A DNA stretch of 34,419 nucleotides from a virus, in IMG/VR virus record IMGVR_UViG_3300030328_002401, positions 1,068 to 35,486 of that record. One strand, 5' to 3'. The notes beneath the pieces are model-generated. The model was not told the DNA's origin and ran no database searches. It was given only the letters and a program-made list of their open reading frames with translations. This document shows positions 9,842 to 12,583 of this stretch, in pieces. A program made the translations under genes and the position numbers. Within the stretch, counting starts at the first letter, position 1. Every line of letters begins with the position of its first letter.

Positions 9842-10564
9842 ATGCCTTTACCTAAGATTTCTGCCCCTACATATGAGTTAGTATTACCCTCAAGTGGAAG
9901 GAAAGTAAAGTATAGACCTTTTTTAGTCAAAGAAGAAAAGATTCTAGTTATTGCATTAGAATCAGAAGATACCAAGCAGATTACAAATGCCATTAAAACT
10001 GTTATTAGTAACTGTATTTTAACAAGAGGTATCAAGATTGAGAAACTAGCAACATTTGATATTGAATATTTGTTTTTGAATGTTCGTGCTAAATCTGTTG
10101 GTGAAACAGTTGATGTAAATATCACTTGTCCTGATGATGGAGTAACTCAAGTTCCTTTGAAAATAGATATTGATTCTATAAAAGTTCAAAGGAATGATGC
10201 TCATAGTAATATTATAAAACTGGATGAGAATCTATCTCTTCAGATGAACTATCCTTCATTGACTCAGTTCATTGAAAGTAACTTTGAACTAGCAGGAGTG
10301 GATAGTGACCTTGAGAAATCATTAGATGTGATTATTTCTTGTATTGGTCAAGTATATAATGAGGAAGAATCATGGGATGCTTCTGAGTGTACCAAGAAAG
10401 AACTAAAAGAGTTTGTTGAGCAAATGAATTCTAAACAGTTCAAGGAGATTGAAACATTTTTTGATACAATGCCTAAACTATCTCATAAGATTAAAGTAAA
10501 GAATCCAGAGACTGATGTTGAGAGTGAAGTTGTATTGGAGGGATTAGCGTCTTTTTTCAGTTAG
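9842..10564 (+). CDS. 26: Baseplate hub assembly / tail chaperone gp26-like
   Basis: The 240-residue protein starts MPLPKISAPTYELVLPSSGRKVKYRPFLVKEEKIL, the typical start of T4-like gp26 proteins, and contains the TCPDDGV zinc-ribbon-like remnant near residue 99. The C-terminal half is helical (QVYNEEESWDASECTKKELKEFVEQMNSKQFKEIETFFDTMPKL). In T4, gp26 is needed for hub assembly. Position directly before a tape-measure-like gene also fits a tail assembly chaperone. The last codons contain a T_TTT_TTC slippery heptamer at 10552-10558, three bases before the stop codon. A -1 shift there would extend the protein to 301 residues with a gp51-like C-terminus. Confidence 0.75.
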   Translation: MPLPKISAPTYELVLPSSGRKVKYRPFLVKEEKILVIALESEDTKQITNAIKTVISNCILTRGIKIEKLATFDIEYLFLNVRAKSVGETVDVNITCPDDGVTQVPLKIDIDSIKVQRNDAHSNIIKLDENLSLQMNYPSLTQFIESNFELAGVDSDLEKSLDVIISCIGQVYNEEESWDASECTKKELKEFVEQMNSKQFKEIETFFDTMPKLSHKIKVKNPETDVESEVVLEGLASFFS

Positions 10565-10587
10565 CTCTAGCTCATGAGAGTCTAGAG
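10552..10587 (+). other. Putative programmed -1 frameshift signal
   Basis: T_TTT_TTC at 10552-10558 is in the zero frame of gp26 and fits X_XXY_YYZ. Six bases downstream, CTCTAG (10565-10570) can pair with CTAGAG (10582-10587) across an 11-base loop. The spacing is typical for a stimulatory hairpin, and the zero-frame TAG lies at 10562-10564. Confidence 0.65.
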
Positions 10588-10746
10588 AACTATTATCGGA
10601 CAAACTTTGCTCTTATGCAACACCATAAATATAGCTTAACAGAACTTGAAAATATGATACCGTGGGAAAGAGAAATATACATCTCACTTCTCCAACAATA
10701 TATTGAAGAGGAAAATCTAAAGCAGCAACAGAGTGGCAATTATTAA
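10558..10746 (+). CDS. 51: gp51-like hub assembly segment, read by -1 frameshift from gp26
   Basis: In the -1 frame the sequence after the slip site reads QLALAHESLENYYRTNFA, then LMQHHKYSLTELENMIPWER and EIYISLLQQYIEEENLKQ. The run HHKYSLTELExMxPWEREIY is the pattern I associate with gp51-type proteins of T4-like phages. The frame opens at 10528, but its first ATG is only at 10615, inside the conserved region, and no ribosome binding site serves an earlier start. Fusion to gp26 is therefore the best explanation: 239 gp26 residues plus 62 new ones. An independent 43-residue protein from 10615 cannot be excluded. The end overlaps the start of the next gene by 14 bases. Confidence 0.6.
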   Translation, partial: QLALAHESLENYYRTNFALMQHHKYSLTELENMIPWEREIYISLLQQYIEEENLKQQQSGNY

Positions 10747-12583
10747 CTTAAAAACACAACAAGCATCTTTAAATAAAACACTGATGAAAAGTTCAGTGCT
10801 TGCTTCTGGTGGCCCAAAACTTACTGCATCAAAAATTAAGGTATCTGATATACCTGAGATTAAGTTTGGAAGTGTTCCAAAGGCAATAGGATCACAACCA
10901 AAGATACCTAAGATCAGTAAGTTGGATGTTCCTGTTCTTCCAGAGCCAGAGAAAGGTGGATTAGGAGAACAACCTTTCTTTAGAGCACCCAAGATAGAGG
11001 GATCTTCTGGTCGTGCTAAAATTACTCCTCAGAAAAGTATTACTAAAACTATTACTAAAGAAAGTTCTGGGCAGAATACTACGAAGATGATAAAAAATCT
11101 TCAAAAGTCATTTCAATCTTTAGCATCTAGAGTTGATAGATTAAATAAAATTCAAAGATCCAGAGTTGAGAGAATACATAAAAATCAAAGAAGATCAAAT
11201 AAAAATCAGAGACTACAGAATCAAACGATTAGCTCATTACGAAAGGGTCAAGAGAGTATAGTACAGAGTCAAGGTGATATAATAAACAAACAAGGTGATA
11301 TAATAACGAATCAGCAACAATTGCAAGAGACGGTTCAGCAGACATCACAAGGTGGGGATAATGCTGCTATCACAGATTTACAAGAAACGACTAATAATAT
11401 AATACAAAGTCAATCAGAGATAAAAGATTCATTACAAGAAACGACTACTATTCTTAATGATATAGGAAATGCAATGTCATTAGACTTTGCTGATCGTATA
11501 ACAAAAGAAAGAGAAGCAATACAAAAGGCAAGAAAGAAAAAACGAGATGATAAAAGAAAAGCAGCAGAAGCAAGTGTAGAAGGTTCTGCTTCTGCAGATA
11601 AGCAGTCTAATGCTTTCGTTGAAAAGGCTAAAAAACCTGTAATGGGTTTAATGAGTAAGATTGGAAGTCTACTTACTTTTCTTACTCTAGGATTTATCAC
11701 AAGTCCAGCTTTAAAATGGTTAAGGAAAAATGGTCCAGCAATAGATGCATTCTTTGAATTTTTCAAACGACATTGGATGACGATGTTGGGGTTTGGATTT
11801 GGAAGTGCTATTGTTCAAACTGCACGTAGTTTAAGTCAAGCTTGGAAGAACTTAGGTCAAAAGAACTGGCTTAGAAGAGGTCTAAAGTGGACACGGAATA
11901 AGTTATTTGGTCCTAAAGTTACTAAGACAGGTACAAGAACAATAAGTGAAGTTACAGATGCGGCCTTTGATATTAAACCAAAAACTATATCACAGTTTAA
12001 GAGAACGAAGAGTCCTATTGGAAGACTTCTACAAAAAACTAATATACTTGCTAAGAAAGCAAAAAGATTACCAATTGGTAGAGTTGGTGGAGGTTTATTA
12101 AGTGTTCTTTTTGCTGGTATGGAGTTTAAAGGTAGAAAAGAAGAAGGACAGACTACAGGGAAAGCATTGATAGGTACTGCAGGATCTACACTTGGTGGAA
12201 TAGGAGGTGCTAAGGCAGGTGCTCTTGTGGGTGCTGCCATTGGTAGTATTATTCCAGGTCCAGGAACAGCTATAGGAGCAGTTCTTGGTGGTTTAATTGG
12301 TGGTATTGGTGGTGCTATGCTTGGTGGTAAAGCAGCAGATACTGTATCAGATGCAGTAGGATTGGGTGGTGATACTAGATTAAATAAGAATGTAAATCCA
12401 AATGGTAAACTAGAAGAAGCAGATGCAAATAAAGTTGTTATTAATGATCTTATAAAAGATAAAACTGGAGATATTACACCAATGGAGACACCTGTAGGAG
12501 GAAGTTCATTACCTTTTCTTTCTCCTGAGGATGCATCGAATCCATATGTATCAATGATGGCACAACAGTTGGGGATATTCTAA
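10733..12583 (+). CDS. Tape-measure-like tail protein, 616 aa
   Basis: The frame begins with GTG at 10733; the first ATG is codon 18 (10784), so the start is uncertain. Residues 1-110 are Lys/Pro-rich. Residues 115-245 form a long Gln/Asn-rich coiled coil with two exact 21-base (seven-residue) steps. A hydrophobic segment near 304-325 is followed by FFKRHWMTMLGFGFGSAIV. Residues 480-530 are a glycine-zipper stretch (GGIGGAKAGALVGAAIGSII, then GAVLGGLIGGIGGAMLGG). Length (T4 gp29 is 590), coiled coil, membrane-active segments and position after the gp26/gp51 pair all fit a tape measure protein. I see no direct sequence motif of gp29, so the identification is by architecture and context. Confidence 0.6.
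   Translation: MAIINLKTQQASLNKTLMKSSVLASGGPKLTASKIKVSDIPEIKFGSVPKAIGSQPKIPKISKLDVPVLPEPEKGGLGEQPFFRAPKIEGSSGRAKITPQKSITKTITKESSGQNTTKMIKNLQKSFQSLASRVDRLNKIQRSRVERIHKNQRRSNKNQRLQNQTISSLRKGQESIVQSQGDIINKQGDIITNQQQLQETVQQTSQGGDNAAITDLQETTNNIIQSQSEIKDSLQETTTILNDIGNAMSLDFADRITKEREAIQKARKKKRDDKRKAAEASVEGSASADKQSNAFVEKAKKPVMGLMSKIGSLLTFLTLGFITSPALKWLRKNGPAIDAFFEFFKRHWMTMLGFGFGSAIVQTARSLSQAWKNLGQKNWLRRGLKWTRNKLFGPKVTKTGTRTISEVTDAAFDIKPKTISQFKRTKSPIGRLLQKTNILAKKAKRLPIGRVGGGLLSVLFAGMEFKGRKEEGQTTGKALIGTAGSTLGGIGGAKAGALVGAAIGSIIPGPGTAIGAVLGGLIGGIGGAMLGGKAADTVSDAVGLGGDTRLNKNVNPNGKLEEADANKVVINDLIKDKTGDITPMETPVGGSSLPFLSPEDASNPYVSMMAQQLGIF
11270..11306 (+). repeat. Tandem 21-base repeat unit in the coiled coil
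   Basis: CAAGGTGATATAATAA occurs at 11270-11285 and again at 11291-11306. The 21-base period equals one heptad (QGDII-K and QGDII-N), consistent with coiled-coil growth by duplication. Confidence 0.7.

Follow-up and report, generated by a model that had tools for sequence, protein, structure and literature searches.

Whether the gp51-like segment that follows gp26 in a metagenomic marine cyanophage is a gene of its own, or the C-terminal part of a longer gp26 reached by ribosomes that change frame, is the question raised by the locus described here. The window, a stretch of 34,419 nucleotides that spans bases 1068-35486 in a virus record 35,486 bases long, comes from a phage whose kin are the T4-like cyanophages. 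Its gp26 reading frame ends at TAG 10562-10564, exactly where an earlier note on this DNA had placed the stop, and in the -1 frame no stop is met between 10528 and TAA 10744-10746 (Table 1). That note had proposed that a programmed -1 frameshift joins gp26 to the gp51-like segment, a proposal now supported by the reading frames, the constraint on a slippery heptamer, the point at which homology to the second domain begins, the scarcity of credible start codons and the flanking signals. A conserved programmed -1 frameshift is the single reading that fits all of the data. Judged from sequence, the fusion is very probably made, within what would be the tail assembly chaperone locus of a T4-like cyanophage.

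Table 1 Features of the putative tail assembly chaperone locus, in window coordinates
Feature	Coordinates	Strand	Remarks
gp26, short form (TAC-N, 240 aa)	9842..10564	+	PF12322 T4_baseplate E 2e-71; PHROG 150 E 1e-77
SD-like GGAGG, candidate 5' stimulator	10537..10541	+	10 nt upstream of heptamer
Slippery heptamer T_TTT_TTC	10552..10558	+	T_TTT_TT followed by C (187), T (11) or G (1) in 199/202 relatives
gp51-type C-terminal domain (62 aa, TAC-C), -1 frame	10558..10746	+	PHROG 634 E 1e-29
Downstream stem-loop, core 10565-10587	10559..10591	+	Energy minimum at site across relatives
Tape-measure-like ORF (616 aa, GTG start)	10733..12583	+	Hydrophobic segments, glycine zipper

Relatives of the locus were gathered from IMG/VR and annotated phage records, and after removal of near-duplicates 202 sequences were left, the window included. 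T4 and Aes012 were left out of this set, as was one relative (L299) because its gp26-like reading frame is broken. All 202 carry the gp51 C-domain in the -1 frame, which in the window matches a family (PHROG 634) labelled 'baseplate hub assembly catalyst'. Over the 50 codons past the slip site, the -1 frame was free of stops in 199 of 199 relatives and the 0 and +1 frames in none, and amino-acid conservation of the -1 frame begins at the slip. The 0-frame stop falls 10 nt past the heptamer start in most relatives and 31 nt past it in four others (L207, L233, L252 and L267), yet even in these four, with the stop 21 nt further downstream, C-domain homology begins at the heptamer. The PF12322 domain was found at a single place in the 35-kb record, which is itself a fragment, and tblastn searches of 692 phage records returned one gp26-like place per record, with no second full-length long-form gene of the T4-type arrangement among them.

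The slippery heptamer described in the earlier note was verified and lies in the X_XXY_YYZ register, its 0-frame codons being TTT (10553-10555) and TTC (10556-10558). An in-register heptamer directly ahead of the short-form stop, as in the TAC-N/TAC-NC pairs of the G/GT type, is thus present in the window. Alignment across relatives had been suggested as a check of both the heptamer and the absence of an ATG, and for the heptamer the result was clear: T_TTT_TTN was retained in register close to the gp26 stop in 199 of the 202 non-redundant relatives, with TTC as the last codon in 187, TTT in 11 and TTG in one. The site occurs in Kyanoviridae and in phages of Sinorhizobium, Rhizobium, Agrobacterium, Aeromonas, Vibrio, Stenotrophomonas, Acinetobacter and Methylophilales, and it was also kept in a further set of viral contigs and in Xanthomonas phage X1. 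Codon choice here runs opposite to local usage. The Phe-Phe pair at the site is encoded by TTT-TTC in 187 of 199 cases, compared with 9 of the 219 other Phe-Phe pairs in gp26, the remainder of which are TTC-TTT (132), TTT-TTT (58) or TTC-TTC (20). The base preceding the pair was T in all 199 sequences against an expectation of 119, and synonymous constraint on the two Phe codons was among the strongest in the last 60 codons of gp26, one Ser codon coming close. These conservation counts ignore phylogeny, and the distant relatives (mostly ~30-40% identity to the query) give the same pattern. Given its retention in nearly all relatives together with the inverted codon preference, the heptamer is conserved far beyond chance.

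Conserved signals flank the heptamer on both sides. A perfect complement of at least 4 nt to the anti-SD sequence lies 7-16 nt upstream in 189 of 199 relatives, with a spacing of 8-10 nt in 182; applied to other parts of gp26, this test gave a background of 18.5%. The Glu codon within this SD-like motif is GAG in 76% of relatives versus 30% across gp26, the highest value of the 22 Glu columns. For -1 frameshifting, SD spacings of 9-14 nt have been reported (PMC5009743). On the 3' side, the earlier note had described a 6-bp hairpin starting exactly six bases past the heptamer; its arms, CTCTAG (10565-10570) and CTAGAG (10582-10587), begin at that distance and are extended by CTC/GAG and AGTT/AACT to give -12.1 kcal/mol. 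By itself the hairpin of the window is only modestly stable (z of -1.5 over 45 nt and -0.16 over 60 nt). Across relatives, the 45 nt directly 3' of the heptamer had a mean minimum free energy of -9.45 kcal/mol, the lowest of the scanned positions (others -3.2 to -7.7), and a mean z of -1.52 versus -0.26 at a control position. On a gapless alignment, RNAalifold returned no consensus fold at the hairpin, and our claim is therefore limited to a positional energy signal. Both the SD-like element and the hairpin may stimulate slippage.

Public annotations imply that gp51 is instead a separate small gene, translated from a start of its own or by ribosomes that reinitiate past the gp26 stop. P-SSM2 and S-PM2 are annotated with gp51 beginning at an ATG directly 3' of that stop, and an ATG precedes the conserved core in 132 of the 202 relatives, in many of them 15 or 24 nt past the heptamer start. 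The claim that the -1 frame has no start codon of its own therefore stands for the window, where the first ATG, GTG or TTG in that frame is the ATG at 10615, but is not universal: an ATG before the core is absent from 70 of 202 sequences (the window and 69 others), and 41 are without any ATG, GTG or TTG. A clear start codon with a ribosome binding site in relatives was named in the earlier note among the observations that would speak against frameshifting. An SD core accompanied 6 of the 132 candidate ATGs, compared with 93 of 197 gp26 starts, or about half. Annotated gp51 starts are moreover scattered between -1 and +92 nt with respect to the gp26 stop, and in three records the stretch carries no annotation. 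A separate gene would also leave unexplained why T_TTT_TTC is under codon constraint and why the -1 frame is conserved from the slip itself onwards. On the start-codon and SD tallies we rejected an independent gp51 start, and we regard the separate-gene explanation as very unlikely.

Stop-start overlaps (TAATG or TGATG) are found in 17 of the 202 relatives, such that some separate synthesis of the C-domain is possible in those phages. In four of the relatives (L091, L095, L096 and L100) the slippery heptamer occurs together with such an overlap at the gp26 stop, which suggests that these phages could produce the C-domain in fused as well as free form. The three records with unannotated sequence, from S-BM3, S-CAM1 and metaG-MbCM1 (L280, L281 and L282), each have an annotation gap of ~180 nt that covers the conserved C-domain.

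Two further explanations would retain the fused product, or a single continuous gene, and dispense with ribosomal slippage. Homopolymers are prone to indels, and the break in the frame falls at a T run, as would be expected if a sequencing or assembly error had interrupted one continuous gene. The same break at the same codon pair is, however, common to the relatives, finished reference genomes included, which refutes an error of this kind and reduces its probability to almost nothing. Transcriptional slippage on the T run could likewise make the fusion, as the site is a run of six to seven T and a transcript with an extra U would encode an identical protein. Against it, the run is just six T in 187 of 199 relatives and has not been lengthened, whereas the reviewed bacterial cases use about nine A or T (PMC5009743), and the conserved SD-like spacing and downstream hairpin fit slippage by the ribosome. 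We accordingly consider a transcriptional origin of the fusion highly improbable, though less remote than an assembly error.

A programmed -1 frameshift also has to be reconciled with the few relatives that have no heptamer. Three distant members of the set (Cygsa01, GR28A and D531; 3 of 202) and the Ackermannviridae phages GG32 and phiDP23.1 maintain the -1 relation between the two frames without it. All five have NTT-TTC one codon ahead of TAA, most with a TAATG overlap. The form NTT TTC NNN TAA, usually with TAATG, is common to the members of this branch, which includes the Ackermannviridae (L093, L097, L098, L300 and L301), and GG32 (L300) is without even the ATG of TAATG. A broader proposal, to which we would give an even chance, is that a dnaX-like three-part cassette (an SD-like element 8-10 nt upstream, U_UUU_UUC and a hairpin) has been selected across several phage groups, and that an Ackermannviridae-like branch lost the heptamer and makes its C-domain in a different way, for example through a stop-start overlap or by slipping at T_TTC.

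In the mechanism that we infer, including the occurrence and efficiency of slippage, the majority of ribosomes would terminate at the gp26 stop and release the 240-aa short chaperone. A minority would pause at the downstream hairpin, possibly assisted in slipping by 16S rRNA that pairs with the GGAGG lying 10 nt before the heptamer, and the two Phe-tRNAs would shift from TTT-TTC to TTT-TTT on T_TTT_TTC. Translation in the -1 frame would then run from CAG at 10558 to TAA at 10744, producing a predicted long form (TAC-NC) of 301 aa that consists of gp26 residues 1-239 and the 62-residue gp51-type domain, with a junction spanning GLASFFQLALAHESLENYYR. If lambda gpG/gpGT are a guide, copies of the short form may coat the putative tape measure protein from the next gene, and the C-domain of the less abundant long form may recruit tail tube or hub parts. 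Such a frameshift would account for the stretch that cyanophage annotations either call a separate 'gp51' gene or skip; the predicted fusion protein is absent from the annotations examined. The cassette would be a conserved, natural one, open to testing in cyanobacteria.

A chaperone function for the two forms is suggested by T4 genetics and by the lambda analogy. The gp26 sequence gave no meaningful match to solved structures. An AF2 model of gp26 of good confidence (pLDDT 86) placed the HK97 chaperone 2OB9 at ranks 2-3 in a Foldseek search of the PDB, with an E-value of about 1, which is without significance, and a probability of 0.75 (chain B); the resemblance of the predicted fold is suggestive only. 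The 616-aa ORF that follows is tape-measure-like by its hydrophobic and glycine-zipper segments only, with three TM-like segments and weak family matches, one of them (E 4e-6) to a tape measure family in PHROG. It appears to start at a GTG that overlaps the 3' end of the gp51 frame, roughly where P-SSM2 has an ATG start.

Comparison with T4 itself clarifies how the two parts are related. Both parts of the window locus are homologous to T4 gp26 and gp51. A profile of the predicted fusions aligned colinearly with T4 gp51 over positions 23-284 of 299 (E 2e-10), and T4 gp26 aligned with this profile at 10-239 only. Since gp51 aligns along the fusion and gp26 with its short part alone, the T4 counterpart of the long form is gp51 and that of the short form is gp26. 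In T4, however, the two forms are encoded by separate genes on opposite strands, in contrast to the one frameshifted gene predicted for the window, and the Phe-Phe pair of T4 gp26 is TTC-TTT, which is not slippery, rather than TTT-TTC. Frameshifting is reportedly conserved in several T4-like groups, and the abstract of the 2022 study by Vladimirov and colleagues is said to name T4 genes 26 and 51.

A 2016 review described G-T frameshifting as widely conserved except in T4 (PMC5009743). According to the papers that cite them, Vladimirov, Gautam and Davidson (2022; Virology 566:9-15) subsequently identified the chaperone genes of T4-like phages (PMC10274946, PMC10885494, PMC12846349), poly-T slippery sites lie in the TAC-N genes of these phages with TAC-NC made by frameshifting (PMC12846349), and some T4-like phages have separate short and long chaperone genes (PMC10885494). 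A literature search on frameshifting in cyanophage gp51 found nothing relevant. Given the 2022 proposal as represented in the citing papers, the concept of a frameshifted chaperone in T4-like phages is already known, and the window locus is a strong further case of it and not a new concept. The suggestion in the earlier note that this locus would unite T4 gp26/gp51 with the lambda G/GT logic is thus upheld as regards the homology of T4 proteins to both forms, but it had been published in 2022, and T4 uses two genes.

As compared through the citing papers, the T4-like set of Vladimirov et al. shares with the window a gp26-type TAC-N, a poly-T site and a frameshifted TAC-NC; the present case differs in concerning a metagenomic cyanophage and in adding 202 relatives, codon-constraint statistics, the SD-like element and the hairpin. 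This broad sample confirms for T4-like phages the short/long logic of tail chaperones that T4 was once thought to lack. In lambda (G/GT), -1 slippage close to the 3' end likewise lets one gene encode chaperones of both lengths, just ahead of a tape-measure-type gene (PMC5009743); the slippery heptamer of lambda differs from that of the window, and the likeness drawn here is one of arrangement. Escherichia coli dnaX likewise combines an SD-like element, a heptamer and a 3' stem-loop, within the reported range of -1 SD spacings given above (PMC5009743), but it uses another heptamer and its shift leads to early termination, whereas the shift predicted in the window would extend the protein.
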